A DNA stretch of 64,000 nucleotides from NCBI RefSeq assembly GCF_020520425.1, contig NC_079492.1, positions 113,061,157 to 113,125,156 of the forward strand, given 5' to 3'. Under the pieces are notes generated by a model. That model worked only from the letters and a program-made list of their open reading frames with translations, was not told the DNA's origin and made no database searches. Origin of the DNA: Spinacia oleracea (lineage: Eukaryota > Streptophyta > Magnoliopsida > Caryophyllales > Amaranthaceae). Below, in pieces: positions 6,296 to 57,372 of the stretch. The translations under genes and the position numbers were made by a program. Position 1 is the stretch's first letter, and each line of letters opens with the position of its first letter.

Positions 6296-6296
6296 G

Positions 6297-16021: not shown

Positions 16022-16026
16022 GATAC

Positions 16027-17441: not shown

Positions 17442-17456
17442 GTCTCCCACTTGTCC
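17442..17456 (-). other. Polypurine tract, element 2
   Basis: On the minus strand this reads GGACAAGTGGGAGAC directly before the 3' LTR, identical to the tracts of elements 1 and 3. Confidence 0.75.
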
Positions 17457-22000: not shown

Positions 22001-22271
22001 CATCTGAGTTGATGAACGTTTTCTGCAGATCCGCACTCATGGTGGCGAGCATTAGACATTTCACATCCTTGTTGGCATCAATCCAACGATTGAGGGCTGC
22101 CTGAGTGACCCCGTCGCCTGCAGCTTCGGGCATCGCCTCATCTAGGACATACTCCTTTTCTTCCTGCATAAGAACTATTTGCAAGTTCCTTTGCCAGTCA
22201 AGGAAGTTTTTCCCGTTCAACTTCTCCTTTTCGAGAATTGATCGAATGTTGAATGAATTGTTGTTTGCCAT
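19032..22271 (-). CDS. Copia gag-pol polyprotein (Gag, protease, integrase, RT) ending at premature TAG
   Basis: The polyprotein would be processed into Gag, protease, integrase and reverse transcriptase for retrotransposition in virus-like particles. I chose the Met at 22271 (start MANNNSFNIRSIL) because the open frame extends 31 codons further up only through a hydrophobic stretch unlike Gag. Numbering from the longer frame's first codon at 22364, visible motifs are: zinc knuckle CX2CX4HX4C (282-295); protease LDTG (328-331); integrase HHCC (H464, H469, C495, C498) and the DD35E triad D525, D588, E624 with exact 62 and 35 spacing; RT YVDD (1024-1027). The frame stops at TAG (19034-19032) after LSKT, where family members usually have Gln before the CPKT segment. 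Everything else looks intact. Confidence 0.92.
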   Translation of the reverse strand: MANNNSFNIRSILEKEKLNGKNFLDWQRNLQIVLMQEEKEYVLDEAMPEAAGDGVTQAALNRWIDANKDVKCLMLATMSADLQKTFINSDAFTIISELKNMFQDLARVERFETHRQILETKLKKGEPVSPHVLKMIGLIENMSRLDQQFSQEMAIDTILHSLHSGYDQFKLNYSMNSLDKTLTELHGMLKTAEKTLKSDKQDVLMVRGGKFKKSGKKRNAKKGGNKASPTKQTGAKSAKRKVSQPTSESECFYCKKKGHWKRDCLKLKEDQKNGTVVPSSGIFVIDCILANSTSWVLDTGCGSHLCSNPQGLRRSRKLSKGEVDLRVGNGARIAALAVGTYYLSLPSGLVLELEECFHVPSLTKNIISVSCLDAKGFSFIIKDNSCSFYFKEMFYGSARLVNGLYLLDHDKQVYNINTKKAKKDDSDLTYLWHCRLGHINLKRLERLQREGILEPFDLEDYGKCESCLLGKMTKQPFSKVGERANELLGLIHTDVCGPMSTNARGGFSYFITFTDDFSRYGYVYLMKHKSESFDKFKEFQSEVENQLGKKIKALRSDRGGEYLSYEFDDHLKECGILSELTPPGTPQWNGVSERRNRTLLDMVRSMMGQAELPLEIWGHALNTAALTINRAPSKAVEKTPYELWFGKPPNVSFLKIWGCEVYVKRLILDKLHPKSDKCILVGYPKETKGYYFYNTSENKVFVARDGVFLEKDHISKMTSGRKVDLEEIRAKQQTLENAQDDIQDETQRSLEESGENHDQSRNVTPRRSQRYRSQPERYLGILTNESYDVLLLESDEPATYKQAMTSPSSKQWQEAMQSELDSMSENQVWDLVDLPDGYQAIGSKWVFKLKKDKDGKLEVFKARLVAKGYRQVHGVDYDETFSPVAMLKSIRIMLAIAAYYDYEIWQMDVKTAFLNGVLTETVFMTQPEGFEDPKNAKRVCKLKKSIYGLKQASRSWNIRFDEAVSDFGFIKNADESCVYKKVSGSKIAFLVLYVDDILLIGNDIPMLNSVKIWLGKCFSMKDLGEAQYILGIKIYRDRSKRMIGLSQSTYINKVLDRFKMADSKRGYLPMSHGMTLSKT

Positions 22272-22394
22272 ATTAAAAACTACAATTGAAAAGAATAAAC
22301 AAATAAATAACCATTCACAGTTTCTCTTAATAAACTTAAATTCTGGCATACATGCATAATTCAATGTTTATTAAGCATTTTATTCAAATTATGT

Positions 22395-25140
22395 GTTCCG
22401 GCAGGTGTGAATAAAATGATTCCAAGATCCTAAAATCATTGAAGAACTAAGCACAGTTTGTCGACTTAATCCTAGAACATCTTAGGTAAGCAAAAGCCTT
22501 TTGCTAATAGTCTAGAAACCATTCTTGGTTGATAGGTACGTCTAAGAACTTATTAGGTAAACCTATCGAATTTGCCACGACATAAAAGGACTCCTTACTT
22601 ATATCGTTGAGTTTCACCAAAACTAACATGTACTCACAATTATTTGTGTACCTTGCCCCTTTAGGACCAATAAGTAACACCTCGCTGAGCGAAAACTATT
22701 ACTAGATTGATGTAAAGGATATCCAAGCAAGTGTATATTTTGGCATGGCACCTTTTAACTCAATTTTTAAGTTTGGAACTTAAGGCTCTTACTATGTTGG
22801 TTAGATTTTAAGTGAACTAAAATCCTTAATCATGCAACATAATCAAGCTTTTGATCTCATGCATTTTAAGACATATTTAAAACAATAAATAACTTAAAAC
22901 ATGCATAAGATATTTGTGATCTAGTATGGCCCGACTTCATCTTGAAGCTTTGACTTCAAAGTCCGTCTTGAAAATCTCCGTGGGAGGCACCATTTTCTTC
23001 AAATAGGATAAGCTATAACTAATTACAACTATTTGATGGTTCGCAGACCATATTTGAATTGAAAAATAACTTTGGTACTTTAGACCAATTACATTCAAAT
23101 TAATGGTACGCAGACCATATTTTCTATCCTATTTGGGCCATACTAGTCACTTCATAACCTGCAAAACAGTACATATACAATATATACCATTCACCCATTC
23201 ATTATCATGAATGGCCCACATAGCTGGTTAGTAAAACACATTATGCATCACGTAAACATTTGCAGCAATTAATCAAGGGCACCAATAATCTACCAATTAT
23301 TCAGTCCTTATTAATTCTAATCAAGTTGTTTTAACCTTAAGGATTTGTAGACCTAATCAAGAGTTTATAACTAAAAAGCGCTCCCACTTAAACCAATAAA
23401 TTCATATGCTTTACCAATTTTAAACATAAAAATGTATTTCTAGTCTAACCGGAAACATACAAATTTAATTAAAATTTAAAGCTCATATAAATTTATAATT
23501 GAATCCAAAAAGTTTAATTTAATTTCAGTCGCATTTAAATTAATTCATGATTTTAATTTTAGTAAAATAATTAGAATAAATAACATTTATTATAATTATA
23601 ATATTCAAAATTAAAATCCAAGAAAATAATTTAAATTATTAATTTTAAAATTAATTAAAATTACGTGAACTGAAATTTTCAAATTAAACATTCAAAACGA
23701 TCTAATCGTAACGCAAACACCCTACGCGTTGCACGCCCATGGGCCGCACGCACACAGCCATCGCTGGCCATGCGCGCGCAGCCCATGCGCTCGTCGCATA
23801 GCTGCTGCATCCCTATCGCAAGCCTCCGCACGCATTGGTGCTCGCTGCGCGCGCCAGCGCTCATCGCACGCGGGCTATCGCTCGCAGTGCGCGCGCGACA
23901 TCGCTCGCTGGGCGCGCGACATCGCTCGCTGGGCGCGCGACATCGCTCGCTGGGCGCGCGACATCGCTCGCTGGGCGCGCGACATCGCTCGCTGGGCGCG
24001 CGAGCCATCGCTCGCCGGGTGCGCGACATCGCTCGCTGGGCGCGCGACATCGCTCGCTGGGCGGGCGACATCGCTCGCTGTGCGCGCGAGCAATGCTAGG
24101 CGCAGCGCTCGTGGCACGCGAGCTTGCGCTCGCTGCGCGAGAGGCTGCGCGCTCTTGTGCGAGGCAGTGCGCGTTGTGGCGCAGCTCGCTTGCTGCCCAC
24201 ACGCGATTGCCTTGGCTCGCCCTTCGCCCATGCCCATTCGTCCATTGCTCGTGGCCCACGACACAAGGCAGGGCTGCTGCCTTGTGCTCGTGCACTACGC
24301 CCTTGCTCATTGCATTCGTGCCGCACGGGCGACGAGCTCCCTTGCTCGTCGTCGCATGCCCGCACTATACAACACCCCTTAAGGGTAACACGAAGCGTCC
24401 ATTGCTTTGTGCGTGCAAGTTATATGAACGAATCGCATAAAAAATTTAAAATTTATAAAATTAATGACAAATTAATAAATATTATTAATTTCATAATTTT
24501 AGGGCGAAAAATCGAAAATTTATTATTCAATTGATTTCCGATTTACATGGATTCAAGTCTAGGTCATAAAAATTTAAAATTTATCATATATTTACAATTT
24601 TTATGGTGGTTTTTAATCATAGGTTTCTAATTAAATTACAATTAATTATGAAAATCAAATTAATTCTAAATTATTCTAATTTTCAACAAATTAATCATAA
24701 TTAATAATTAGATTGCATAATTAACAAGACTAGGCATTCAAACTTGTTAAACATATGCAGTAGGTCAATAAAAAATTCAAGATTTATCAACAAGAATCGC
24801 AAATATTTAATTTAACATCTTAAATTTACGAAATTTTGCATTCGAAAAACTAAAACCTTCGAAAAGTCATAGTTAGGCTTCGAATTTGAGAATTCTGGGT
24901 TCGGCAGAAAAATACTATTTTTGTCAAAATTTTAGAATGCCTTTTACATGCGGAATTGACACAAAAATCACTCAATTCGGATGAGTAACGAAGAAACTGC
25001 CGAAAAACTGCGTACGTATAATTAAATAAACGCAATTTGCAATTAATTAACAATTACGAAAATTAATCACCCCTTTTAATTCTTGCAAATTTGTAATATT
25101 TAACCATGTTCATGCAATTTAGATTATGAAAATAATAAGG
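22395..25140 (-). other. Long leader of Copia element 2
   Basis: This is nearly 2.8 kb between the primer site and gag, without a convincing gene. It matches the leaders of elements 1 and 3 almost throughout, up to the sequence TTCACACCTGCCGGAACA just before gag. It includes the GC-rich array. Conservation across coding and non-coding copies suggests cis functions such as packaging or translation control, which is an inference. Confidence 0.6.
23885..24090 (-). repeat. GC-rich 21-bp tandem array in element 2 leader
   Basis: The plus strand has about nine tandem units of CGCGCGACATCGCTCGCTGGG (21 bp) with small variants. As 21 is a multiple of three, all six frames stay open, giving spurious frames of 100-217 codons encoding repeats such as RARDIARWA. 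Element 3 has the same unit with fewer copies (36985-37140), so the array expands and contracts. Confidence 0.8.
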
Positions 25141-25154
25141 GGCTCGTGATACCA
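25141..25154 (-). other. Primer-binding site, element 2
   Basis: Minus-strand TGGTATCACGAGCC lies just inside the 5' LTR. It is the same one-base variant of the initiator tRNA-Met primer site as in elements 1 and 3. Confidence 0.75.
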
Positions 25155-25155
25155 C

Positions 25156-26570
25156 TGTTAGGTTATGATACATATGACAATTCATAAATCATGCGGAAAA
25201 ACCATAAACCCAGGAAAACATATTATTTACACATAATCATTTAGCATAGATTAGATGCATACTCTTTGTTGCGTGCCTTCCCTAGCTGCGCCCGAACCGA
25301 ACAAGAACAAGTCTTTAGGACTCCAAGTGTCGTCCCTCCGTAGATAGTCCACAGCACGTCCGGATCCGCCTTAAGATTGACCAACTAGAATCGCCCTTAA
25401 GGTACTATTATTTTCGGCACTTTATAGGCAAATGTGTGACTGAATTTTTCTCTCAAAAACTCACTTTGAATACTTTGAAACTTGTGTTATAAATTGTGAG
25501 CCCTAGCCTCATATTTATAGCGGTATGGAAAGGGAATCGAAATCCTATTCAGATACAAATTAATCAAACCTAGAATCCTACAAGAACTCTAATTTAATTA
25601 ATTTATCAAATAGAATTTAGGAATTTAATCATTAACCGAACTCTGCATGTTTTAGGAAACGTGCACGAACACAAACACTTGCACACACACACGCACGGCA
25701 GCCACGATGGGCCCCATGCGTGCGCGCGAGCAGCAACCCACTCAGCGCCCGCGCGCGCTGCGCGTGCTGTGCGCGCTGTGCGCGCTGCGCGCTGCGCGCA
25801 GCCTGCTGGGCCTGGCCTTGCGCTGGGCCTGGCGTGGCTGTTTGTGCGGCGCGCTTGGCTTGCTGGGCGATGGCCTGGCTTCGTGCTGGGCCTCGTCCGG
25901 CAGGCCTCGTCCGATGCTTATTCGTACGATGCGCTTCCGATTAAATTTTCCGATTCCGGAATTCATTTCCGATACGAACAATATTTAATATTTCCGATTC
26001 CGGAATTAATTTCCGTTTCGAACAAATATTTAATATTTCCGTTTCCGGAATTATTTTCCGATTCCGGTAATATTTCCGATTCTGACAATATTTCCGTTTC
26101 CGGCAATATTTCCGATTCTGGCAATATTTCCATTTCCGATAATATTTTCCGACACGTACCATGTTTCCGTTTCCGGCAACATCTACGACTTGGATAATAT
26201 TTATATTTCCGATACGATCCATATTTCCGTTTCCGGCAATATCATCGTTTCCGGAGTATTCATTCCTTGCCTGTGACGATCTTAGCTCCCACTGAAACCA
26301 AGATCCGTCGGTTCCGAATATTCATAGATGGAGTATTTAATGCTATTAAATACTTGATCCGTTTACGTACTATTTGTGTGACCCTACGGGTTCAGTCAAG
26401 AGTAAGCTGTGGATTAATATCATTAATTCCACTTGAACTGAAGCGGCCTCTAGCTAGGCATTCAGCTCACTTGATCTCACTGAATTTATTAACTTGTTAA
26501 TTAATACTGAACCGCATTTATTAGACTTAACATAGAATGCATACTTGGACCAAGGGCATTATTTCCTTCA
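25156..26570 (-). repeat. 5' LTR of Copia element 2 (minus strand)
   Basis: This is a 1,415-bp LTR identical on reading to the partner at 16027-17441. It holds the family TATA box (plus TATTTATA at 25512-25519), GC-rich block and CGGAAA array, and is followed by the target duplicate GATAC. Confidence 0.92.
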
Positions 26571-26600
26571 GATACTCGATTACTCAGTATATGATTAAAA

Positions 26601-33919: not shown

Positions 33920-34504
33920 AATCAAACCCTTAAAGTAGGTCAGCAAGGCTACTATCAGCTTGCTGACTCGGGGTAATGTATAATCAAAAATCGTGATTCA
34001 AACCCTTAAAGTAGGTCAGCAAGGCTACTATCAGCTTGCTGACTCGGGGTGATACGAATCAAACCCTTAAAGTAGGTCAGCAAGGCTACTATCAGCTTGC
34101 TGACTCGGGGTAATGTATAATCAAAAATCGTGATTCAAACCCTTAAAGTAGGTCAGCAAGGCTACTATCAGCTTGCTGACTCGGGGTGATACGAATCAAA
34201 CCCTTAAAGTAGGTCAGCAAGGCTACTATCAGCTTGCTGACTCGGGGTAATGCATAATCAAAAATCGTGATTCAAACCCTTAAAGTAGGTCAGCAAGGCT
34301 ACTATCAGCTTGCTGACTCGGGGTGATACGAATCAAACCCTTAAAGTAGGTCAGCAAGGCTACTATCAGCTTGCTGACTCGGGGTAATGCATAATCAAAA
34401 ATCGTGATTCAAACCCTTAAAGTAGGTCAGCAAGGCTACTATCAGCTTGCTGACTCGGGGTGATACGAATCAAACCCTTAAAGTAGGTCAGCAAGGCTAC
34501 TATC
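33920..34504 (+). repeat. Hairpin-bearing tandem repeats in Gypsy 3' region (left part)
   Basis: Units of about 61 and 76 bp alternate, giving a higher-order unit near 137 bp. They share a core from CAAACCCTTAAAGTAGG to CTGACTCGGGGT and differ in a spacer (GATACGAAT or AATGTATAATC...). Each unit has a perfect 9-bp inverted repeat, GTCAGCAAG...CTTGCTGAC, with an 11-bp loop. About nine units precede the Copia insertion, which cuts the ninth within its loop. Confidence 0.9.
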
Positions 34505-35909
34505 TGAAGGAAATAATGCCCTTGGTCCAAGTATGCATTCTATGTTAAGTCTAATAAATGCGGTTCAGTATTAATTAACAAGTTAATAATTCAGTGAGAT
34601 CAAGTGAGCTGAATGCCTAGCTAGAGGCCGCTTCAGTTCAAGTGGAATTAATGATATTAATCCACAGCTTACTCTTGACTGAACCCGTAGGGTCACACAA
34701 ATAGTACGTAAACGGATCAAGTATTTAATAGCATTAAATACTCCATCTATGAATATTCGGAACCGACGGATCTTGGTTTCAGTGGGAGCTAAGATCGTCA
34801 CAGGCAAGGAATGAATACTCCGAAACGATGATATTGCCGGAAACGGAAATATGGATCGTATCGGAAATATAAATATTATCCAAGTCGTAGATGTTGCCGG
34901 AAACGGAAACATGGTACGTGTCGGAAAATATTATCGGAAATGGAAATATTGCCAGAATCGGAAATATTGCCGGAAACGGAAATATTGTCAGAATCGGAAA
35001 TATTACCGGAATCGGAAAATAATTCCGGAAACGGAAATATTAAATATTTGTTCGAAACGGAAATTAATTCCGGAATCGGAAATATTAAATATTGTTCGTA
35101 TCGGAAATGAATTCCGGAATCGGAAAATTTAATCGGAAGCGCGTCGTACGAATAAGCATCGGACGAGGCCTGCCGGACGAGGCCCAGCACGAAGCCAGGC
35201 CATCGCCCAGCAAGCCAAGCGCGCCGCACAAACAGCCACGCCAGGCCCAGCGCAAGGCCAGGCCCAGCAGGCTGCGCGCAGCGCGCAGCGCGCACAGCGC
35301 GCACAGCACGCGCAGCGCGCGCGGGCGCTGAGTGGGCTGCTGCTCGCGCGCACGCATGGGGCCCATCGTGGCTGCCGTGCGTGTGTGTGCAAGTGTTTGT
35401 GTTCGTGCACGTTTCCTAAAACATGCAGAGTTCGGTTAATGATTAAATTCCTAATTCTATAAATTAATTAAATTAGAGTTCTTGTAGGATTCTAGGTTTA
35501 ATTAATTTGTATCTGAATAGGATTTCGATTCCCTTTCCATACCGCTATAAATATGAGGCTAGGGCTCACAATTTATAACACAAGTTTCAAAGTATTCAAA
35601 GTGAGTTTTTGAGAGAAAAATTCAGTCACACATTTGCCTATAAAGTGCCGAAAATAATAGTACCTTAAGGGCGATTCTAGTTGGTCAATCTTAAGGCGGA
35701 TCCGGACGTGCTGTGGACTATCTACGGAGGGACGACACTTGGAGTCCTAAAGACTTGTTCTTGTTCGGTTCGGGCGCAGCTAGGGAAGGCACGCAACAAA
35801 GAGTATGCATCTAATCTATGCTAAATGATTATGTGTAAATAATATGTTTTCCTGGGTTTATGGTTTTTCCGCATGATTTATGAATTGTCATATGTATCAT
35901 AACCTAACA
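34505..35909 (+). repeat. 5' LTR of Copia element 3
   Basis: This is a 1,405-bp LTR with TGAAGG...CCTAACA ends, nearly the same sequence as the element 2 LTRs. A TATA box (TATAAATA) is at 35546-35553. The CGGAAA array is about 34836-35130 and the GC-rich block about 35160-35400. Confidence 0.92.
35546..35553 (+). promoter_or_regulatory. TATA box of element 3 LTR
   Basis: TATAAATA in the context ACCGCTATAAATATGAGG, at the same position as in the LTRs of elements 1 and 2. Confidence 0.65.
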
Positions 35910-35910
35910 G

Positions 35911-35924
35911 TGGTATCACGAGCC
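35911..35924 (+). other. Primer-binding site, element 3
   Basis: TGGTATCACGAGCC, the family variant of the initiator tRNA-Met site, lies one base after the LTR. Confidence 0.75.
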
Positions 35925-36984
35925 CCTTATTATTTTCATAATCTAAATTGCATGAACATGGTTAAATATTACAAATTTGCAAGAATTAAAAGGGGTGATT
36001 AATTTTCGTAATTGTTAATTAATTGCAAATTGCGTTTATTTAATTATACGTACGCAGTTTTTCGGCAGTTTCTTCGTTACTCATCCGAATTGAGTGATTT
36101 TTGTGTCAATTCCGCATGTAAAAGGCATTCTAAAATTTTGACAAAAATAGGTTTTTTCTGCCGAACCCAGAATTCTCAAATTCGAAGCCTAACTATGACT
36201 TTTCGAAGGTTTTAGTTTTTCGAATGCAAAATTTCGTAAATTTAAGATGTTAAATTAAATATTTGCGATTCTTGTTGATAAATCTTGAATTTTTGATTGA
36301 CCTACTGCATATGTTTAACAAGTTTGAATGCCTAGTCTTGTTAATTATGCAATCTAATTTGTAATTATGATTAATTTGTTGAAAATTAGAATAATTTAGA
36401 ATTAATTTGATTTTCATAATTAATTGTAATTTAATTAGAAACCTATGATTAAAAACCACCATAAAAATTGTAAATTTATGATAAATTTTAAATTTTTATG
36501 ACCTAGACTTGAATCCATAACAATCGGAAATCAATTGGATAATAAATTTTCGATTTTTCGCCCTAAAATTATGAAATTAATAATATTTATTAATTTGTCA
36601 TTAATTTTATAAATTTCAAATTTTTATGCGATTCGTTCATAAAACTTGCACGCACGAAGCAATGGACGCTTCGTGTTACCCTAAAGAGGTGTTGCATAAT
36701 GCGGGCATGCGACGACGAGCAAGGGAGCTCGTCGCCCATGCGGCACGAATGCAATGAGCAAGGGCGTAGTGCACGAGCACAAGGCAGCAGCCCTGCCTTG
36801 TGTCGTGTGCCACGACCAATGGACGAATGGGCGTGGGCGTAGGGCGAGCCAAGGCAGTCGCGTGTGGGCAGCAAGCGAGCTGCGCCACAACGCGCGCTGC
36901 CTCGCACAAGAGCGCGCAGCCTCGCGCGCAGCGAGCGCAAGCTCGCGTGCCACGAGCGCTGCGCCTAGCATTGCTCGCGCGCAC

Positions 36985-37140
36985 AGCGAGCGATGTCGCC
37001 CGCCCAGCGAGCGATGTCGCGCGCCCAGCGAGCGATGTCGCGCGCCCAGCGAGCGATGGCTCGCGCGCCCAGCGAGCGATGTCGCGCGCCCAGCGAGCGA
37101 TGTCGCGCGCCCAGCGAGCGATGTCGCGCGCGCACTGCGA
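36985..37140 (+). repeat. GC-rich 21-bp tandem array in element 3 leader
   Basis: About seven units of GCGAGCGATGTCGCGCGCCCA, the reverse complement of the element 2 unit, lie in the same relative position. There are fewer copies than in element 2. The long open frames on both strands here come from the 21-bp periodicity. Confidence 0.8.
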
Positions 37141-38038
37141 GCGATAGCCCGCGTGCGATGAGCGCTGGCGCGCGCAGCGAGCACCAATGCGTGCGGAGGC
37201 TTGCGATAGGGATGCAGCAGCTATGCGACGAGCGCATGGGCTGCGCGCACATGGCCAGCAATGGCTGTGTGCGTGCGGCCCATGGGCATGCAACGCGTAG
37301 GGTGTTTGCGTTACGATTAGATCGTTCTGAATGTTTAATTTGAAAATTTCAGTTCACGTAATTTTAATTAATTTTAAAATTAATAATTTAAATTATTTTC
37401 TTGGATTTTAATTTTGAATATTATAATTATAATAAATGTTATTTATTCTAATTATTTTACTAAAATTAAAATCATGAATTAATTTAAATGCGACTGAAAT
37501 TAAATTAAACTTTTTGGATTCAATTATAAATTTATATGAGCTTTAAATTTTAATTAAATTTGTATGTTTCCGGTTAGACTAGAAATACATTTTTATGTTT
37601 AAAATTGGTAAAGCATATGAATTTATTGGTTTAAGTGGGAGCGCTTTTTAGTCATAAACTCTTGATTAGGTCTACAAATCCTTAAGGTTAAAACAACTTG
37701 ATTAGAATTAATAAGGACTGAATAATTGGTAGATTATTGGTGCCCTTGATTAATTGCTGCAAATGTTTACGTGATGCATAATGTGTTTTACTAACCAGCT
37801 ATGTGGGCCATTCATGATAATGAATGGGTGAATGGTATATATTGTCACTAGTAGAAAAACATTAATTTGCTGCCATGACTTAGCTGCGTTAATCAATTAA
37901 CGCCTCTAACTAAATGAGAAATTCGAGGAATTAGTTAAAAAAATAACACTTTGCGGCGTTATCTTCGATTATGACGCAGCGAATTATTAAAAAAAAAAAT
38001 CTGGCGGCGTCTATCCTTTAACGCCGCAAATTTGGAGC

Positions 38039-38039
38039 T

Positions 38040-38075
<36 letters not shown>

Positions 38076-38076
38076 T
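38039..38076. repeat. (TTTC)n microsatellite
   Basis: About nine tandem TTTC units lie just inside the left subterminal region of the CACTA element. Confidence 0.9.
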
Positions 38077-38240
38077 TGGCTTGTCTTCACTTCACAAAAA
38101 CACCAGCACCTTCTTCTTCCTTCGTACGATTGACTGACTCTGACCTACTTTCTTCACCATCGAATTTCGCCGGGAAACTTAAGCTCCGCCACCGCCGTGG
38201 TCATTCGAACTCATCTCTGCCGCCGCCGTTCTCACTTGGG
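38076..38240 (+). pseudogene. Possible captured first exon, transit-peptide-like
   Basis: The open stretch reads LACLHFTKTPAPSSSFVR and continues rich in Ser, Pro and Arg, followed by a possible splice donor (GG then GTACATT) near 38240. The composition resembles a chloroplast transit peptide. It has no in-frame ATG at the start. It may belong to the iminopeptidase fragment downstream or to a third gene; I cannot decide. Confidence 0.3.
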
Positions 38241-38627
38241 GTACATTATGCTTCCACTGGCTCCTCCTCATCCTTGCCTTTTTTTTGTTCAATTGCTCTA
38301 TTCCCCCTCATTTCAGTCTCTCAATTTACATGAATTGTGTTTGAATTATCTAATTATTGCTCTCTTGCTCTGTCCTCTCCTCTCTTCTCTCCCGCTGAAA
38401 CTGTAAATTAATTAACCCTAATTTTCAATGTCGAATTTTGGCTTAAAAGAACCTTAAAAATGCTTTAAATTTATCTCTGATTGTATCCTACAAATTTGGT
38501 GTTGGTTCAGGCTCGAGACTAAGAAACCTGAAATTTTTGTTCATGGGTTTTGCTTAGGTTTTAAACTAAATTTAAGATTTCACTGTAATTCGTTCCTTGG
38601 TGTAACACGTTGTATTTGGGTTTGTAG

Positions 38628-40738
38628 ATTCAAGATTTGCTTGTCAACTTTTTGAACATTGTGGTGAGTTTTGACACTGATTTTGGTGGAATTCGGGTTG
38701 TTTATCGCTCTGGCGTTGGTGAGGCTCGTGGTGTCGAGCTTCGTAATGTTATGGAAGCCATGGATGTAAGTTTCTGTTTGTTCAATGCAGTGAGATGTTG
38801 TTATGTGCTATTTAATTCTTTATTCTTAACTAACTGAGTGTATGAATGTATGATGATATTCATTAGCAAACTCGCTAAATTTAGTGTATGATTTGAGTAT
38901 TCCATGGCTAACTTGAGGATTCATTTAGCTGCCATTTCCTAGAATTTATAGTTTTCAATTGTCATTTTCCCAGGTGCTAGGAATACTTGATTATGGGCTT
39001 GCAAGGACCGCTGACTTATTCATCAAGCATGTCATTGCTCCTGCAGTGAAATTTAACTCCCCTGTTTCGTTTCTGGAAGAATCTAGTGGTAGCTTGGTCG
39101 AGAGCAGTGACAAAATCTTGAAGATAGTCTCAAGTCTAGAGCCGAAGGTAACATCAATGATATAAATACTCGTATAATAAATTTGGTCCCTTTTCACTCA
39201 AGAAATTGTATGTATATTGAGTGCCAAAGCAGACAAGCAAGATATAAGAAATCAGGAAGAGCATTAAAGAATTTGGTGATTGGTAAATTTTAATTAGTCA
39301 GTAACACACTAAAACATTAGACTACGTTATTCAAGGAAAAGAACGCAGCATGCTATAGCCTGTTAGATTAACCCCTTTTTTGATGTAGACAGATGACATT
39401 GATAGCGATGCTCTATTCTCAAGAATGACGATAGTTGTTAAGTTTATCCACCAGTATATATGTCTTGAAAATGGTCCTTGGATGCGTTGTTTCGGAAGGT
39501 TGCGTGGCCAAGAATGTCTGAGCTTATTATTTCTAACTTCCTCTCAAAGGTAAACACTTCAGCTTTGTCATCCATGTTTCGTTTATGCTCAACTTCACTG
39601 CATGCATCATGTAAATATTTTTTTCCATGTATGTTGATAGCTGGTTGGTGTGGGACGTGGGGGGGGGGGGGGGGGCTGATGTTCACCTGATACCCTATCT
39701 CTAGGTTTGATTGCTTAAGATCTTCAACGCGAATTCATAGTTTTCGTTGGTCTTTTGTTTTTATTTCTTTAAGTGTAGTCTGACCTCTCTTTGCAGTGTT
39801 GAATCTTTTGTATTCTGTATTCTCAGGTTGTCCCTGATGATGCTTCAAAGTTAGTTGATTTTCAGAAGATCATGAACTCTTCTTCTGAATTTGAGATTGT
39901 TTTACAGGAGATTATGTTCATTTCCAAATCTGATAAGAATGATGAAAGATTAAGCAACTTTGCTGATAACGTGGAGGTACACTTTGCTGTGAGGAAAAAG
40001 AGAGAAATGCTGGCAAATGCTAGACAGTTGATTCTACGATGTGACTTTACTATTCCAGAAGTCAACTCTCATTCAACCTGTCTTATATCTTTGTGCTCAT
40101 CTGCTGGAATTACGTACTAACAATTAGCTCTCAGGAGTTTAGCAGCAAAGGACCTAAGTTCGGAAATAACAGATACACTGATTGTGCTGTCAATTTGCTA
40201 TTTTCGTCAGAGAAGTGTATAGTGTCCCTTGCTGCTTGTCAGTTGATGAAGTTGGTGCATCAAACACTTCAAGTAAGATAGTTATTTCTGGCTATTATTC
40301 TGACTTGTTCACTTGTTTACATTAATCATTATTTATAATCACACTAAGCTTTCATTTTGACAAATTATGGTGGAATTGTACCTAACAGTGGTTTTTGTGA
40401 TGTTAAGGTATCACAACTAGTATGTTTTCTCAATGTGATACATGGATCATTCTGATTAGCGGATAAACCCCATGAAATTTTAAACTTGACATGTTTAAGA
40501 GTTACTTCACATGAACATTTTGCTTCACCATTTTATCACAGTTATACCTACTATCCTGAGTCCCTGACTCTGGGCAGGATTGATATCTTGCTGATTGCAT
40601 GTTATAAGACGGCATATATGACTTCTTGATAATTCTTGTGTGTAGGATGTTTGTTTGTCATCCCCAAGAGTGGCGTTGGAATTCTATCATGCTGCAAGGG
40701 ATGTTCTGTTGCTGTATGAAGCTACCATTCCAATCAAG
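38628..40738 (+). pseudogene. ZW10: Captured fragment of ZW10 kinetochore/vesicle-tethering gene (six exons)
   Basis: ZW10 acts in the kinetochore RZZ complex and in Golgi-ER vesicle tethering. Six exons with consensus borders are readable: 38628-38765 (ends GVELRNVMEAMD), 38974-39147 (VLGILDYGLARTADLFIKHV), 39389-39549 (ends WPRMSELIISNFLSK), 39827-40060 (VVPDDASKLVDFQKIM), 40135-40272 (ends LMKLVHQTLQ) and 40646-40738 (DVCLSSPRVALEFYHAARD). They fit the middle of plant ZW10 as I know it; both ends of the gene are missing. In exon 3 a single base is missing in the segment for FGRLAWPRM, shifting the frame near 39500. Introns are kept, so capture was from genomic DNA and not from mRNA. No intact protein can result. 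Confidence 0.85.
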
Positions 40739-40812
40739 GTATTCATGTCGTGGAGTTTTTAAATCATTGATGTGAGAACTTCTGCATCACTAATGACCAT
40801 TACATGCCTACA

Positions 40813-40901
40813 AGTATGCTCACTTTTAGGAAGCAATGCTTTTTTCTTGAAGTATGCTCACTTTTAGGAAGCAATGCTTTTTTCTTGAAGTATGCTCACA
40901 A
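40813..40901 (+). repeat. Short tandem duplication at the fragment junction
   Basis: Two tandem copies of a roughly 40-bp unit (AGTATGCTCACTTTTAGGAA, then GCAATGCTTTTTTCTTGA) and part of a third lie between the ZW10 and iminopeptidase fragments, where the two captured pieces were joined. Confidence 0.7.
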
Positions 40902-40932
40902 GTATGACCCTTTCTTTCCCTTTTGTTTACAG

Positions 40933-41100
40933 AGCTATGGGGGGTTTTTGTGCTGTTACATATCTAAGTTTTGCCCACAAGGGTTAAAGCAAGTCCTTGT
41001 AACAGGCGGAATTCCATCAATTAAGGATGGATGTAATGCAGATGCCGTATATCATGCATGCTTTGAAAAGATTGTGCGACAAAATGAGAAATATTATGCG
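40933..41100 (+). pseudogene. Captured exon of a prolyl iminopeptidase-like alpha/beta hydrolase
   Basis: After a good splice acceptor (TTTGTTTACAG) the exon begins with codons for SYGGF, part of the nucleophile elbow GxSYGG of proline iminopeptidases. It continues GLKQVLVTGGIPSI and later FEKIVRQNEKYY, typical of this family. One extra T after SYGGF and one missing C before PQGLK shift the frame and then restore it. In between, the other frame reads CAVTYLSFA, which is the expected family sequence. So it is a decaying fragment of one exon, not a gene. It has no catalytic Asp or His part. Confidence 0.75.
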
Positions 41101-41565
41101 ACAAAATTATATACCGTAATTCTTTAGTCTTCCCAATTTCTTCTTTTCTTTGTTCGTTCCCTTAATTCCTCTGTTTTACACAGGCTTGAGAGAGCCTGGG
41201 ATCTGTAGTGCAGCAGCTACCCCCAACTAAGCCCCCTGTGAGAATGACATATGTCAGACGTAAGAGGAAGGATAAATCAGGAATTACAACTTAATGGTGT
41301 CAGCATTCTGTTAGAAAATACCGTGAGCAGCAAGTTGGTGATTGTCACGCATGAGAGAGGAGTTGTCAGAGCTAGCACTATAAATAAGGCAGGAGCCGTA
41401 AAAGAATGTTATGTGATATATTCTGTCTTTTTCTTGTCCTTCTACCTCAGTTGTATGCACCATTGGTGATTTAATAGCTTCAAATACAACTATTTCTATC
41501 CTAGCCTTAATATTATTACCTTTGTTTCTGGGTACAGATTTGCATCCACTAATTCCATAACAAAC

Positions 41566-41742
41566 TTGGAGTTGGTGGAAAAACCTGACTCCTTGGTAGG
41601 AGTTCGACCTGCTGTTTCTGGAGATGGAACTGCGTTAGAAGTACTCATTAAGTGGGATAACCTGCCAGATTATGAGGCAACTTGGGAAGATTTCCTTGCC
41701 GTCCAGACCAGATTTCCGGCTTTTCACCTTGAGGACAAGGTG
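41566..41742 (+). pseudogene. Ty3/Gypsy chromodomain fragment inside the CACTA element
   Basis: Codons for EVLIKWDNLPDYEATWEDF and then FPAFHLEDKV match the C-terminal chromodomain that follows integrase in chromovirus-type Gypsy elements. Only this end is recognisable. It is either a retroelement piece picked up by the CACTA or a remnant of an insertion in it. Confidence 0.65.
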
Positions 41743-43369
41743 ACTCTATTATTTACTTGGTATGACAATTATTTGCTTGAAACTTTGATGGATGGCAGTT
41801 TGATAATTGGGGGGGTTTCAACACGAACCCACTATATGCGATACTTTGGTATCTTTGGCAATTAAATAATATCCTTGTTTTGTTTACCTTAATATTGATC
41901 TATGATCATGTCCTATTTCCCTATATGATATTTAATATTCTAGACCAATCAAATAAGCTTTAAATTTATTTTGTTGACAGTGGACAAGGGAGACAAAGTT
42001 CCCACATGCTGTATGGAAGGCTGGTCATGGTCTAATTGCTCTTCTTTTGTGAAACTTTGATGTTGTTAATAATATATGGCTTGAGCCCTTTCCTGGGAGG
42101 TTAGTTATTTTGTAACCTTATTTTCTTTTGCTGATATATTTTCCACTTTTTACGGGAAAGCTTGCGAAGTTGCAATTTTTAAAGAATATGATTTAACAAT
42201 GACGATAGTTAGAACTCAGACACAGTTGTCTCTTTGAATGAAAACTCATCTATAGCTTGTGAGTTGCTATCGGTCTAAGTAACCTAATATTAAGTATATT
42301 AAACATTTAAAGAGTTTAGAATACCAATCTAAGTTCATGGGTTAGAGTTAGGGAGCAAAAACGACTATAACAGTCAAAATATGACCTATAATGATCATTA
42401 AAGTCTTAAACGCGCATAACTTGACCAAAGTAGATGAGAATAATTCTAAGTAACCTAATAAGAAGAATATTAAACATTTAAAGGGTTTAAAATAGGAAAT
42501 TTTGTGAAACACTACCTTTAAGTTTGGTGGTTTTGTGAATTGCTACCTTATATAAACTTTTTTTAATTTAACTACCTTATAAGTTTGGTTTGTTTGACTA
42601 ACACTACCATTTGACGTTTTTCGTTAATGTTTTCCGTCGTGTATTTCTTCTATTCTTTTAAATTAACCCTAATTTTATGATATATATATATTATTTTGTT
42701 AGGTTTGCATTTCAATGAGTGGAGATCCTTTCACCGATGAGCAAATTGATGAAATACGAGACAAATGGGCATCATACTTCACCGAACATTGTGTGTAATT
42801 AACGCTTCATTGATCTCTTCTTGTGGATGTTTCGTGCTACTAAAATCATATATAATTGCCTTATTATATTTTTGGTGCAATTTTGTAACGTACGAAGTGT
42901 AAAAGATATAGTTATTATAGATTTGAAACTATTTAGGTGGTTTATTTTTTTAAACATATATATGATGGTTAACTTATATGTAAAAATCAATGTTTCGGAA
43001 AGTTATTGGTGGTTGATGACACTTTTGAACGTTGTATAAATGTGGCGTGAGTACAGGTCTACATTTTTGGGATTGTTGAGTATACGAAATATATATTATT
43101 TATTAAAAAAATATATTATTTATTCGCGGCGTATAAACTTCTGCCATTTTACCAAAGTTTGAGGCGTTCAGGTAGAAACGCCGCAATTCAATTCAAATAT
43201 TTTGAGGCGTTTTTCCCTAATTACGCCGCAAATGAATGATTGATTTGAGGCGTTTTTTAACGCCGCAAATCAATACAATTCATTTGCTGCCACTCTATTT
43301 GCTGCTACGCCTAAAACGCCGCAAATCAATATAAAAGTGACGCCTCAAATCAATATTTTTCTACTAGTG

Positions 43370-46300
43370 TGTATATGTACTGTTTTGCAGGTTATGAAGT
43401 GACTAGTATGGCCCAAATAGGATAGAAAATATGGTCTGCGTACCATTAATTTGAATGTAATTGGTCTAAAGTACCAAAGTTATTTTTCAATTCAAATATG
43501 GTCTGCGAACCATCAAATAGTTGTAATTAGTTATAGCTTATCCTATTTGAAGAAAATGGTGCCTCCCACGGAGATTTTCAAGACGGACTTTGAAGTCAAA
43601 GCTTCAAGATGAAGTCGGGCCATACTAGATCACAAATATCTTATGCATGTTTTAAGTTATTTATTGTTTTAAATATGTCTTAAAATGCATGAGATCAAAA
43701 GCTTGATTATGTTGCATGATTAAGGATTTTAGTTCACTTAAAATCTAACCAACATAGTAAGAGCCTTAAGTTCCAAACTTAAAAATTGAGTTAAAAGGTG
43801 CCATGCCAAAATATACACTTGCTTGGATATCCTTTACATCAATCTAGTAATAGTTTTCGCTCAGCGAGGTGTTACTTATTGGTCCTAAAGGGGCAAGGTA
43901 CACAAATAATTGTGAGTACATGTTAGTTTTGGTGAAACTCAACGATATAAGTAAGGAGTCCTTTTATGTCGTGGCAAAATCGATAGGTTTACCTAACAAG
44001 TTCTTAGACGTACCTATCAACCAAGAGTAGTTTCTAGACTATTAGCAAAAGGATTTTGCTTACCTAAGATGTTTTAGGATTAAGTCGACAAACTGTGCTT
44101 AGTTCTTCAATGATTTTAGGATCTTGGAATCATTTTATTCACACCTGCCGGAACAATAAAATCGAATAAAATGCTAATAACTTGTTTGAATTGCATGGTT
44201 GCTTTAATTTCAAGTTATTATTCATGATAAATGTTTAGACTTTGCATGCTTCAATGTATGTTTTAATTATTGTTTATAATTAAATATCTTGCACTGCAAT
44301 AAATCCTTTTAGAAAGGTAACAGTAAATTTCCTCGATTGGTAGTGAATCCAAGAACGATTCACGGAAAAGAGAGAAAGTGAGCAATTTAAAATGTACGTT
44401 TCTTATAGCGACTTTTATGGTTGTTTTCGAATATCAAAATCGAATGGCAAACCAATTGGTGCTTGTGAATTCAAAATACACTGTAGTTTTGAGATCATGA
44501 AGCATTGAGTTTAACACGCTCAGCTTTACCAATGGTTAACAACCTAATATCTTTTTCCATTTAATTCTCGAATGAGTCTAGTCCCTAGACATTCGAATAG
44601 ATCGATGCTTAGAGAACTTTAGAAGCTTCTGGTAAGATCATCTAGTTGAAACAAAATATTCAACATAAATGGTAAAGAACCTTGTTGGGGTGACATTGGA
44701 CATGTCTAACAAAGTATAAAAGTCAACACTAAAGAATTCAATTCTTAAGACTATAAGAAAGGGTACAAGAAATAGGAAAACAAAGGAACAAATGAAAGGA
44801 ATTTACGATTCCGTTTCTACCTATAAGTTTATGTTTAAAGAGAAGTGACCTAGCAATCAAACTTCCTTGGTATCATATACCGCTTGAGGTTCTTACTTCG
44901 GTAATAACTCAAACAATGGAAGCTAGGATACACTAATGACCTACAAGTGGGAAACGAAGCATGGCAATGCTACATTAGTTGTAGGGTCATCTAGTTTGTT
45001 TTAAGTCCTTTCAAGGCTGGAACTTAATGGCTATTTTGTTCCATAATCAGCATACCTAAATTTCTGCTTCAAACACAGAAAGACTCACATTCAAGAAAAA
45101 CAAAAACAATGTTTGTTTGTTTATTTGAATGAAATGGTCAATTACAGGTTGAGTCAATATGCTTGATTAAAACAAACAACTCTTTAAAGAACTTTACTAG
45201 GTTCAAATCAACCCCTTGATTTGAGTTCCACTAAATCTTTGGCATTGTTGCTTAGACCATATCAACAAGTTAACATTCAAAAGCTCTATTTTAATGGACT
45301 TTTGAAAGTTGATTGATTTCTAGATCATTTTAAGACAACCAGTCTTACTTGTTGAAAGTAACAAAAGATATGAACTATTGTTAGAACGCCTAGACAATAG
45401 AGTTCAAAGCTAAAGAAAAATTTTATGACTTTATTATTTCACATGGATTTGAGTGAATATAGGTTTATTTACTCAAAAGTGATATAAGTTGAATCTGTTT
45501 GGCTAGTTCAAAGATTCAGAAGTATAAAATCCACTTGGTAAGAAATCATAAAGATCTAGGTTAGATCATGTTAATGATTACTTGAGACCAAATATGATCA
45601 TCAATGATTGTGTGTTGTAATTTCACAATCTAGCTCCATAAGATATGGCATATCTTAGTTGGAATAATCGAAGTCAATTAGTACTTGATTCGATCAATGA
45701 TGGATCATAAAACTTTTCCTATAATTTCTAAAACAAAATGCTCAACTACCACCAAACTAAACCAAATTCGTCAAAACTATTGAAAAGTAATTTCAGAATA
45801 ACTTTTCATAAAATATATCTAGAGAGTTGCAAAACTCAGTGGGAGCTTAGTTTTTGTCATTTCGACAAACTAAGGCCCAAGTATAGATATATGTTTCATT
45901 GTGATTTATTCAAATGAGGCACAAGGGTATTGTTTCTACCACGAATTTTTGAGAACATAATGTTTGTTTGCTCGAAATAATGTCCTTTTGGAGATTCGTT
46001 TCCAAAATGACAAGTGGGAGAAAATAGACCTCGAAAGTCTTCGAGACGAACAACAAACATAAACGGACATTCCGGAGGCTTTTCGAAGTGCTTCAGAAAA
46101 TCCGAACTTATTCTTTAAGGACTTTAGAAGTGGCTTTAAAGAATAGACATCTCTTAGAAGACTTTACAAGTGCTTCAAGGAGAACAGAATATTCAAAGGA
46201 CTTTCAAGTGGCTATTGATATTCTATTGTTTGATGTTCTATACCCTAGTAGGCATAAAGTTCAAGTCACTGGAACTATGAGATTCTTCTATTAGATAGTG

Positions 46301-49081
46301 AAGAATCATGGAGTTCAGGTCACTGAAACTATGCAATTCTTCTATTAGATAGTGAAGAAACCTACAACTTGCAGTCAAACTATTATCATGTAGATTAATG
46401 AGTTTGTGACTTGTGAGAAAGCTATGACGAAACCTAGATTCCCTAAAATGGTTAGAGGCCATATATAGACTCAAATGTTTTAAATGGTTAGAGGCCATAA
46501 AACATACTCAATGTTTTGATGACAAAATTGAAATTTTGTTGATTTGCAAGAATGGGTTCACACCTATTGGTTGCAAGTTTGTTTTAAGGATAAAAACCAT
46601 CAAACATGGAATTGTGTTCACACACAAAGCTAGATTAGTTGCTAAAGGTTACAAGCAAATTCATGGTGTAAATTGTGTTGAAACCTCATGCATAATCGTA
46701 ATGCTCAAGTCTATAATTCAAGCAATGATTGCATATTGGTACATATAGCAATTGGATGACAAAACGTATTCCTCAATCAAATGTTGGAATAAACTATGTA
46801 CATGGTATGTCATAGGATTTGTGGATCCAAATAAATGCTTGAAAGAGAAAGCTAGCTTATAAAATCTAAGTACAGATTTAAGCAAGCAATTGGGAATTGG
46901 AACTGTATTTTAAGTGAAGCTAATAAGCATTTTAGTTTCATAAAATATACATGATTCTTATACATATATAAGAAGTTTAGTGGGAGTACATAAAAACTTA
47001 ATTGGTCCTATGTGTATCACACACATATCTCTCTATTGTAAAATAACATTCAAATGCTAATGACTTAGATTTGAGATTATTCATCAATGATGGACCATGG
47101 CGAAACTTAGTACATACTGGGTATTAAGATCTATTTACAAAGATCTTATGATATTGTTTTGGATTAAGTAATGGCATTTACTAAATCAAACACGAAAGTC
47201 TCCATTGGAGATATTCGACCCATGTGAATAAATCTAAGTAAAGGATGTTTTAACTATGTATAAGCATTTACTAAGTTAAACATCAAAGAGTCTAAATGAG
47301 ATTCTTAACCTATATTATATGTCAAAGAATTTAGCTGAATTTAGTATCTACTGAAACTAGATAAGCTAAAGTTACATGAATAGAATTCAATTGGGAAATA
47401 TTCTGCAAAAGAATTTATCATGTATGATATAATATGAGGATCGCCAAAAACGTATCGTATGACTTTAGGCATGACGAACATATACCAATCTCTATTGATC
47501 TAAGTGAAGATCAACTAGATTGAGATCAAGAATACTTATGGTACTTGAAATGATACATAGGAATAGTTCTTGATTCAAGGAAATAAAGATATGCTAAATA
47601 TTGATGCTACACGCATAAACACTGGCAAAGGATCAAGCAAGACCCTTTGGAGTTAACCATTGATAAGGACGAGCTATAGAGCATCGGGTTTTGAAATGAC
47701 AACATGGATTGGAGATCATGAGTTGTTGCGTGGGAAATTAAAATAATAATTTCTATGTTCTAAGATATAGTTGGAGAGTCTTCCACATATCTATGAACTG
47801 CTTGGATAGGTAAATCCAAACAAAGCATCACTAGCAACCTATACAGTTGAAGTAAAAGTAATTATTGCCTAAGAAGCAATAAAACAGGGTTGTTTAAAGT
47901 TCTTCACTGAACTTGGGTAGATCACCTATCTGCTGGCTTGATGGTTCTTCATTGAAAAATGCGTGGAACCACTCTTGAAGCAAGAAAAACGTCTGCTAAC
48001 TTGATGGTTCTTCATTGCAAAATGAGTAAAACCACCATCAAAGTAAGAAAGACTAGATCACATAATAAACAAACTCGAAAAGATCTTATCATCATATCTC
48101 GAAGAACATTCGATGAAAATGATATTAAGATTGGCAAAGCATGATAACTAAACCTATGCAACAAATGAGAAGCAACACTCACGTTGTAGCACTGGAAATC
48201 AAGCATAGCTTTGAATTCCATGAACTGTTTTAAAGATGGGTTTGAGGCCCATGGTTATAAAACATTGGGGTTGAACATTTATCATATATGAAATATATTT
48301 TCATATTCCATTTAATCTTGGTTTAGTATTAAATGATGAGTCCCTTCAAATTTGACGATATATTCAAGATAGACTGTCAGGACCAGTCCTGTGACTAAGA
48401 AATGTCTATCAAGTGAACTTGAATGTCAAAGGTTGAAAATGGTCCCTAATCGGAGTTTTCTATAAAATTGGACGCATAGAAAACGTTAGACGATTAGAAT
48501 GCAAGATGACTAGTAGTTCTGTTTCTTGAACTATGTGGACATGGCAATGTCATAATCATTTGCATAGATACTTACTTCGGGAAGACTAGTATCGGACAAG
48601 ACCTATAAAACTTTACTGTAAGAGATGAAAATCTGTCATGAGTAAATTTCATTAAATTATTAGACACTAAATCCTCAATACCTGAGTGATTTGAGATTAC
48701 TTGTTTGAGAACTGGTTGCTTTGACGTTGACCAACCGTCGCACCGTAAAAGGAGGCTATAAAGGCAACGCTCAGGTAATCACCTATCAAACGAAGTCTAA
48801 TCTCAAGATCGCAAGATTGGGATTGTCCTCCCATAAATCGGGATGAGATGCTTAAAAGTTGTACAAGGCCACTCGGAGAGCTAGAAACTGTGAAATGCAT
48901 GGCCGTGCTCGGATGAATCATAGGCTATGATTATCTGTCTATTTGATCAGTTGAACTCTGAAACCGAGGAACACCTCTGGACGTAATAAGGATGACAACT
49001 CTTACCTTATGTTCAAGAGCAAGCATCGAGCGACAAAGGAATTAGGAAATGCACACTTGTCCCTAAGGACAAGTGGGAGAC
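43370..49081 (+). other. Internal region of Copia element 3 after the CACTA
   Basis: This holds the rest of the leader (to about 44155, matching element 2), a decayed central part, and from about 48290 the shared 3' region and polypurine tract. In the central part, 46536-46690 still encodes NGFTPIGCKFVL and KARLVAKGYKQIHGV of the Copia reverse transcriptase, and 45990-46040 the segment before it. Otherwise it is full of stops. The decay pattern, including the same gaps, is shared with element 1. Confidence 0.75.
49066..49081 (+). other. Polypurine tract, element 3
   Basis: AGGACAAGTGGGAGAC lies directly before the 3' LTR, as in elements 1 and 2. Confidence 0.75.
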
Positions 49082-50493
49082 TGAAGGAAATAATGCCCTT
49101 GGTCCAAGTATGCATTCTATGTTAAGTCTAATAAATGCGGTTCAGTATTAATTAACAAGTTAATAATTCAGTGAGATCAAGTGAGCTGAATGCCTAGCTA
49201 GAGGCCGCTTCAGTTCAAGTGGAATTAATGATATTAATCCACAGCTTACTCTTGACTGAACCCGTAGGGTCACACAAATAGTACGTAAACGGATCAAGTA
49301 TTTAATAGCATTAAATACTCCATCTATGAATATTCGGAACCGACGGATCTTGGTTTCAGTGGGAGCTAAGATCGTCACAGGCAAGGAATGAATACTCCGA
49401 AACGATGATATTGCCGGAAACGGAAATATGGATCGTATCGGAAATATAAATATTATCCAAGTCGTAGATGTTGCCGGAAACGGAAACATGGTACGTGTCG
49501 GAAAATATTATCGGAAATGGAAATATTGCCAGAATCGGAAATATTGCCGGAAACGGAAATATTGTCAGAATCGGAAATATTACCGGAATCGGAAAATAAT
49601 TCCGGAAACGGAAATATTAAATATTTGTTCGAAACGGAAATTAATTCCGGAATCGGAAATATTAAATATTGTTCGTATCGGAAATGAATTCCGGAATCGG
49701 AAAATTTAATCGGAAGCGCGTCGTACGAATAAGCATCGGACGAGGCCTGCCGGACGAGGCCCAGCACGAAGCCAGGCCATCGCCCAGCAAGCCAAGCGCG
49801 CCGCACAAACAGCCACGCCAGGCCCAGCGCAAGGCCAGGCCCAGCAGGCTGCGCGCAGCGCGCAGCGCGCGCAGCGCGCACAGCGCGCGCAGCGCGCAGC
49901 GCGCGCGGGCGCTGAGTGGGCTGCTGCTCGCGCGCACGCATGGGGCCCATCGTGGCTGCCGTGCGTGTGTGTGCAAGTGTTTGTGTTCGTGCACGTTTCC
50001 TAAAACATGCAGAGTTCGGTTAATGATTAAATTCCTAATTCTATAAATTAATTAAATTAGAGTTCTTGTAGGATTCTAGGTTTAATTAATTTGTATCTGA
50101 ATAGGATTTCGATTCCCTTTCCATACCGCTATAAATATGAGGCTAGGGCTCACAATTTATAACACAAGTTTCAAAGTATTCAAAGTGAGTTTTTGAGAGA
50201 AAAATTCAGTCACACATTTGCCTATAAAGTGCCGAAAATAATAGTACCTTAAGGGCGATTCTAGTTGGTCAATCTTAAGGCGGATCCGGACGTGCTGTGG
50301 ACTATCTACGGAGGGACGACACTTGGAGTCCTAAAGACTTGTTCTTGTTCGGTTCGGGCGCAGCTAGGGAAGGCACGCAACAAAGAGTATGCATCTAATC
50401 TATGCTAAATGATTATGTGTAAATAATATGTTTTCCTGGGTTTATGGTTTTTCCGCATGATTTATGAATTGTCATATGTATCATAACCTAACA
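49082..50493 (+). repeat. 3' LTR of Copia element 3
   Basis: This is a 1,412-bp LTR, 7 bp longer than the 5' copy because of a different number of GCGCGCAGC-type units in the GC-rich block. The rest reads the same. A TATA box is at 50130-50137. Confidence 0.92.
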
Positions 50494-56414: not shown

Positions 56415-57372
56415 CACTACAAGGAAGTGGTTGATTACCAACTGAATTTACCAACCGCCAAAAAAATGGTCAGTAAAACAAAATTTACCAACCGCTGAAA
56501 AAACAGTCGTTAATTTACCAACTGGATTTTTAGCGGTCGCTATTTTATAAATTTACCGTCCGCTTGTACAGCAGTCGTTAATTTAGTGACCGCTTTTCCC
56601 TGTGTTCCGACTACGCAGCAGTCGCTAAATATACGACTAATTCCAAAAGACATTTAAAATTTTAGTAACCGCTTATTTATTATCTCCCACCAAATTTGCG
56701 GTCGGTATTTGGATTTTTTTTTAAAAAAAAATGAGCGGTCAAACAAATTAATGCCATACCAACCAGTACAACAAATCAATTCCTACTAGCAGTCGTTAAC
56801 ATTCCCAAAAAAAATTGCTATAAGGAGAAGGAGCGGCGATTTGGCCGGAAAATCACCCTCACCGCCCACCCGCGCCACCCCAACCGCACCGTCACCCACC
56901 CAGGCAGCCGCGGTACCTTCCCGCCAGCCGCGCGCTGTCCCGCTGTCCCGGCCACCCATCCAGCTACCTTGGCAGTCGCTAAATTAGTGACCGCCTAAGC
57001 AGTCGCTAAATTAGTGACCGCCTTGGCAGTCGCTAAATTAGTGACCGCCTAAGCAGTCGCTAAATTAGTGACCGCCATGGTAGTCGCTAAATTAGTGACC
57101 GCCAAGGCAGTCGCTAAATTAGTGACTGCTATGGCGGTCACTAATTTAGTGACTGCCATGGCGGTCACTAATTTAGCGATTACGAAGGTGGTCGCTAGTT
57201 CTATCAGTAAATTTTAGCGACCGCCTTCTAGTCGGAGTTTTCTTAATTACCGTCCAGGTGAATACTGACCGCCATTTTGCGACCGTTGGCGGTTGGTAAA
57301 ACTTTTACCAACCGTTTTTCGCGTTTTACCAACTACTTTTGGCGGTCGAAAATTAATCAATTTCTTGTAGTG
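56415..57372. mobile_element. Small non-autonomous CACTA element
   Basis: The ends CACTACAAGGAAGTGGTTGAT and the inverse AATCAATTTCTTGTAGTG are flanked by the 3-bp target duplication CTC (56412-56414 and 57373-57375). At 958 bp it has no transposase. The interior is almost all subterminal-type repeats built on GCGGTCGCTAAATT/AATTTAGTGACCGC. Confidence 0.92.
56973..57180. repeat. 27-bp palindromic tandem repeats in the small CACTA
   Basis: About eight units of GCAGTCGCTAAATTAGTGAC plus CGCCTAA/TTG occur in tandem. The core GTCGCTAAATTAGTGAC is a near-perfect palindrome. The last units switch to the inverted form GGCGGTCACTAATTTAG. Confidence 0.85.

Follow-up and report, generated by a model that had tools for sequence, protein, structure and literature searches.

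A probable Pack-CACTA element of spinach with captured ZW10 and prolyl-iminopeptidase gene pieces

How do intron-containing pieces of unrelated host genes come to lie between the ends of a DNA transposon, and do they have a role there? This question is raised by a stretch of 64,000 nucleotides of Spinacia oleracea (assembly GCF_020520425.1, contig NC_079492.1, positions 113,061,157 to 113,125,156 of the forward strand), which we call the window. At positions 37846-43369 of the window, a reading made from the sequence alone had noted a CACTA element with fragments of a ZW10 and a prolyl iminopeptidase gene. We regard it as highly probable (about 0.93) that this is a non-autonomous Pack-CACTA element with captured pieces of both genes, that it spread as a chimera, and that its cargo is a passenger. 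The nesting in a Copia element, the 13 copies, the frameshift and the permuted Gypsy piece described below go beyond the sequence-only reading. Chance as an explanation of the observation was rejected: in the genome searched (894,210,420 bases, 242 contigs), the ZW10 part gave a match with E=0 over 2.1 kb, and a 28-nt sequence pattern from the element's 3' terminus occurred 160 times, versus 0 occurrences for the reversed control.

Element ends, empty site and host retrotransposon

The element occupies 5524 bp on the plus strand (37846-43369). Its terminal inverted repeats (TIRs), CACTAGTAGAAAAA... at 37846-37869 (plus) and ...TTTTTCTACTAGTG at 43346-43369 (minus), comprise 24 nt each and are 92% identical; an alignment of 35-nt arms gives 83%, but takes in flanking DNA. 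The trinucleotide TGT stands on both sides as a target site duplication (TSD; 37843-37845 and 43370-43372), and the corresponding empty site contains a single TGT. This empty site lies at 22777-23576 (minus strand) in a sister copy of the surrounding retrotransposon, and its 800 bp are 99.875% identical to the joined flanks of the element; a second match to the joined flanks, at 7643-8471, reaches 91%. The CACTA element proposed by the sequence-only reading is thus borne out with respect to both its nature and its limits. A subterminal motif, ACGCCGCAAA, occurs with at most one mismatch six times on the plus and five times on the minus strand, and all 11 instances are confined to the first 185 or the last 250 bp of the element. 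With CACTA-type TIRs, a 3-bp TSD and repeated subterminal motifs, the element shows three traits of the CACTA (En/Spm) superfamily. Within it, the longest frame from stop to stop has 131 codons.

The insertion is nested in a long terminal repeat (LTR) retrotransposon at 34504-50493, the limits of which (LTRs 34504-35909 and 49081-50493) were set by self-alignment. We class this host as Copia-type because the polymerase encoded by its sister copy is RVT_2. Of 1406 aligned sites, only 2 differ between the two LTRs, and the alignment has 7 gap columns; since the CACTA insertion is younger than its host, the window copy must have jumped very recently. Substitution rates of 1.3e-8 and 7e-9 per site per year give the host Copia an age of about 0.05-0.1 million years, a value that is based on only two differences and has a correspondingly wide error. 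The window contains three copies of this Copia-type family, at 4901-15113, 16025-26571 (inverted) and 34504-50493, whose LTRs differ at 25/1379, 0/1418 and 2/1406 sites, respectively; GC-rich 21-bp tandem repeats lie within Copia copies at 36975-37145 and 23877-24089.

Captured gene pieces and their donors

The largest piece of cargo, at 38610-40815 (plus), runs from the last part of intron 1 of ZW10 through exons 2-7, with the introns between them, into the first part of intron 7. Its donor is the gene at C2:96.13 Mb (L019), to which it is 93.3% identical, introns included. This locus is the sole Zw10_N match in the genome at E<=0.001 (one match, two candidates scored), and exon-like frames continue there beyond either end of the captured part. 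Alignment to the gene places exon 2 at 38628-38765, exon 3 at 38974-39147, exon 4 at 39389-39549, exon 5 at 39827-40060, exon 6 at 40135-40272, and exon 7 at 40646-40738, all on the plus strand. Exon 4 has lost 1 bp, which shifts the frame; exon 5, the frame of which matches Pfam Zw10_middle (1.9e-15), is followed by the donor site GTCAAC instead of the GTAAGT of the gene.

The peptidase cargo follows at 40904-41203 (plus; At3g61540-like), where an internal stretch of the gene is missing, and continues with a third piece at 41741-41846 (plus). The donor is the gene at C2:104.33 Mb, and the identities are 94.4% (40904-41098), 96.0% (41103-41203) and 96.2% (41741-41846). The exon starts exactly at 40933, the position named in the sequence-only reading. 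No Pfam or NCBIfam family matched the window piece, and NCBIfam recognised none of five peptidase stretches; the piece is called prolyl iminopeptidase because the donor exon matches a chain named AT3g61540/F2A19_140 (1.9e-35). Hence the sequence-only reading was correct in assuming that pieces of at least two unrelated plant genes lie between the CACTA ends, one of them a prolyl iminopeptidase, and that ZW10 was taken up with its introns: both parents could be located, and the lack of a ZW10 locus with the same introns, which would have refuted the reading, does not apply, as such a locus exists.

Its third proposal, a Gypsy chromodomain, holds in a weaker form. The segment at about 41204-41740 (plus) is a diverged Gypsy-derived piece: outside the family, its closest DNA relatives are 71-72% identical (C4:78.198 Mb), with the two parts in opposite order, so that the piece is permuted; the Pfam Chromo match (6.5e-5, 23.2 bits) stays below the cut-off of 25.1.

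The remainder is mostly family backbone. The 5' part (37846-38609, plus), which includes subterminal motifs, is 70-72% identical to the relatives L032, L033 and L045; its first ~627 bp are common to relatives where no ZW10 was found, and it may itself contain captured DNA. At the ZW10-peptidase junction, repeat and joint comparisons revealed two tandem 38-bp units that contain family backbone (40812-40887, plus). Further backbone is located at 41843-42274 (plus; 96.8% to L045), followed by one counted 170-bp minisatellite unit (42273-42442, plus; repeat comparison), and, as delimited by copy alignments and motif search, at 42669-43369 (plus), where it contains the 3' subterminal motifs.

Copies, relatives and capture history

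The ZW10 search returned at least 50 matching pieces, which were sorted into loci by hand. Among the matches listed, the chimera (A-type) is present at 13 loci, namely the window and 12 more, and the peptidase search recovers the same 13. Perfect 3-bp duplications flank all of them (window, 11 loci, and L018): element and cargo moved together, and each locus has its own duplication. One of the copies, L021/L022 at C5:67.25 Mb, is split within its ZW10 part by an insertion of roughly 10 kb. This split copy was left out when the other 12 were aligned. The mean difference among 11 aligned copies is 0.28%; L018 differs from other A-type copies by 1.2-1.4% (four comparisons). A tree of the 12 copies had near-zero inner branches and was not used. 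Internal deletions have removed most of the Gypsy piece in L012 and about 0.5 kb of ZW10 in L020. The Gypsy piece is found at high identity in A-type copies only (12 whole, one cut). The 38-bp junction unit is present twice in the window copy and in L011 and once in the remaining 11 of 13, and the number of 170-bp units (region 42273-42494 in the window) varies from 1 to 12 across these 13 near-identical copies.

Subsets of ZW10 occur at 18 or more other loci, which fall into two classes. B-type loci (L023, L024 and L025) contain exons 2-3; the family left end is present at L023 and the right end at L024, and neither end was found in the stretch of L025 that was examined. The B-type ZW10 of L025 is interrupted at 2078-6056 by what is apparently a member of another CACTA family, with the ends CACTACTACAAAAA and TTTTTGTAGTAGTG and TGA on both sides. 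C-type loci, at least 15, contain exons 5-6. Two of these, L026 and L027, were inspected at sequence level, and L027 is flanked by GCA on both sides. At all ten C-type loci on C1-C4, the family 3' end follows 2.6-15.3 kb downstream on the same strand; the five on C5 fall outside the 100 family 3' ends listed of 160. Altogether, at least 31 ZW10-fragment loci stand beside one gene locus, a ratio of about 31 to 1.

Other relatives have a different content. L045 shares the backbone and carries neither ZW10 nor peptidase; in L032 and L033 the peptidase piece is present and ZW10 is absent. L032 additionally contains exons of an isoleucyl-tRNA synthetase (5927-6529; zf-FPG_IleRS, 4.9e-10), which were found at nine loci. 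One of these, C2:98.70 Mb, is likely the donor, as it reads on as a gene (94.5% over 903 bp); at six of the eight others the family 3' end was seen by eye 2-5 kb downstream, and the remaining two are outside the 100 listed of 160. The B-type relative L023 holds an antisense Cupin_3 piece (3038-3295, minus; 2.6e-13), for which C3:23.29 Mb (91%), one of several similar matches, is a candidate donor.

The joints between the pieces bear on the history of the captures. ZW10 starts at the same donor base in the A-type and in all three B-type loci, and the joint between backbone and peptidase is identical in the A-type copy L009, the C-type copy L026 and L032. Judged by these shared joints, each of which would have arisen once and then been inherited, the capture of the peptidase and the A/B capture of ZW10 look like single events that were followed by deletions. 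For the C-type, L026 is 97.6% identical to the ZW10 gene and 96.5% to the window copy; without an outgroup, these values fit the same as well as a separate capture of ZW10. At some joints, 2-4 bases are common to both sources (for example AAGT at the 3' end of ZW10 and ACTT at the 3' end of the peptidase), and other joints have no clear overlap; this microhomology is suggestive of repair or template switching, and of nothing beyond that. A fusion of neighbouring elements as the route of capture is not supported, as an internal family TIR (at most one mismatch) was not found inside the window copy.

Taken together, the data show the following course. Genomic DNA from a prolyl-iminopeptidase gene and from the ZW10 gene, introns included, was taken up by a CACTA family, possibly through template switching or through faulty repair of a break. 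Deletions reshuffled the captured block, which carries the scrambled Gypsy piece, and the finished chimera reached 13 sites, each with a TSD; in the case of the window copy, it entered a young Copia element. Mobilisation could have been brought about by an autonomous relative, whose transposase would act in trans on the ends common to both. Most likely the gene pieces have no protein role and travel as passengers; an effect on the host, be it through read-through chimeric RNA or through small RNAs matching the ZW10 gene, would only be incidental.

Weighing the readings, and known systems

In comparison with the ZW10 gene, the window copy has a synonymous divergence (dS) of 0.065, a non-synonymous divergence (dN) of 0.038 and a dN/dS of 0.59, at a non-coding difference of 0.057. 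Over 12 A-type copies, dN/dS against the gene is 0.47-0.64, which is about what one neutral plus one constrained branch give. Moreover, the 1-bp deletion in exon 4 is found in 11 of the 12 aligned copies and is absent from L018. Because of this ratio and of the frameshifts, ZW10 looks like drifting cargo. Alternatively, ZW10 exons 2-7 might be spliced in phase to the peptidase exon, the resulting protein having been under selection before the recent burst. L018, in which a ZW10-peptidase frame stays open for 377 codons (that of the window copy closes after 166; three copies were examined), is what such a chimeric gene would predict. L018 also has 0 coding indels in 939 sites versus 9 non-coding indel events over 1288; at the non-coding density, roughly three would be expected in coding sequence along the element branch. 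However, intron homopolymers may inflate this density, and we take the missing coding indels as a hint, not as evidence of a gene. The end of exon 7 and the start of the peptidase exon share a phase, which was rejected as proof of function, as random joins agree in phase in one of three cases. Since 11 of 12 aligned copies are frameshifted, amplification did not need the frame; the altered exon-5 donor GTCAAC occurs in all five displayed A-type copies that retain this site, L018 included; the peptidase exon leaves the reading of the gene over part of its length; and 27 random substitutions leave no stop with a probability of 0.45. It is therefore quite improbable, in our view, that the pre-burst family bore an expressed and selected ZW10-peptidase fusion which the burst lineage lost by frameshift. 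If true, both the birth and the death of a transposon-borne new gene would be visible in a single family.

A further possibility is an effect of the captured fragments on the host, with small RNAs from the family dampening the ZW10 gene in trans. The numbers of loci given above would favour such an effect, as a single Zw10_N gene locus faces all the fragment loci. Furthermore, 346 of 819 exon 21-mers and 310 of 801 exon 24-mers of the gene are identical in the window element, the longest exact exon tract being 89 bp, and captured sequences in maize transposable elements are described in outline as reservoirs of small interfering RNAs (PMC13317346). In contrast, the window element lacks a long inverted ZW10 repeat that could form a hairpin; the longest inverted match of ZW10 to ZW10 is 21 bp. 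On balance, we consider trans-dampening unlikely. We take the subunit MIP1 of the MAG2 complex to be the ZW10 orthologue. The sequence-only reading had called ZW10 an essential-type gene, which is doubtful for plants given the phenotypes of Arabidopsis mutants: those in the four subunits of the MAG2 tethering complex build up storage-protein precursors, as summarised in PMC5968616. By comparison, transport of the block by some other means (a Helitron or a segmental duplication, for example), with CACTA ends merely flanking it, can practically be dismissed. No observation favours it, the 3-bp duplications coincide with the CACTA ends at 13 of 13 loci, and for the window copy the near-identical empty site refutes it. 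When the joined flanks of the 12 loci other than L018 were compared with a subset of the genome sequence, seven pairs gave spanning matches without the element and five gave none; the match of the window copy had an identity of 99.9%, and the others displayed had 67-91%. A segmental duplication shared with L014 was also rejected: the 8 bases before the insertion are common to both, but the 1-kb flanks do not align.

The Pack-CACTA reading, which we prefer, has to be weighed against four points. The open 377-codon frame of L018 is somewhat unlikely under drift. L045, with its degenerate left end and a right end not seen in the stretch examined, is a backbone relative and not a proven pre-capture element. 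The joints do not distinguish repair synthesis from the tandem-insertion model outlined for Pack-TYPE elements (PMC8903248). Finally, an autonomous partner was not found in a partial comparison of 99 transposase hits on C1-C4 with the 100 family 3' ends listed of 160 (150 hits were scored among 1375 candidates); one hit lies within 60 kb of a family 3' end, on the wrong side.

Outside this family, the window contains a second, different non-autonomous CACTA element of 958 bp (56415-57372; CACTACAAGGAA...TTTCTTGTAGTG), with the duplication CTC and 27-bp internal tandem repeats, and, according to Rfam, two tRNA genes (59580-59649 and 60855-60922), which lie on opposite strands at a distance of 1.2 kb.

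That CACTA elements can capture several genes is already known, and the spinach case is a new, well-resolved example. The titles and abstract openings of the literature surveyed name no spinach CACTA with captured genes, which is not proof of absence in print. Its value lies in a datable series within one genome (backbone only; peptidase only; peptidase plus ZW10; other genes), with the ZW10, peptidase and isoleucyl-tRNA-synthetase donor genes still present; owing to this graded series and the surviving donors, capture order and effects on the donor genes are directly testable. For spinach, hundreds of accessions have been resequenced (305 according to the summary of PMC8668906).

As outlined in PMC8903248, Pack-CACTA and other Pack-TYPE elements are likewise non-autonomous DNA transposons with internal captured gene pieces and nested sub-families. 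The spinach element differs from that outline in its length of 5.5 kb, in containing 2.2 kb of one gene with six exons, in its identifiable donors, and in the window copy having no sign of fused neighbouring elements. Tgm-Express1 of soybean, in the summary account of PMC1947982, is a CACTA element of similar length (5.7 kb) that contains fragments of five unrelated host genes, with introns and splice sites retained; it resides in a gene intron and chimeric transcripts were shown, whereas the spinach copy lies in a Copia element. The CACTA elements of Chenopodium, plants related to spinach, also captured gene fragments. According to PMC8978399, these are pieces of neprosin and AP2 genes, which are shorter than those in spinach, and coding domains are also carried; one C. 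quinoa element has, in its 3' region, a 171-bp tandem array, which in length recalls the 170-bp units of the spinach family.

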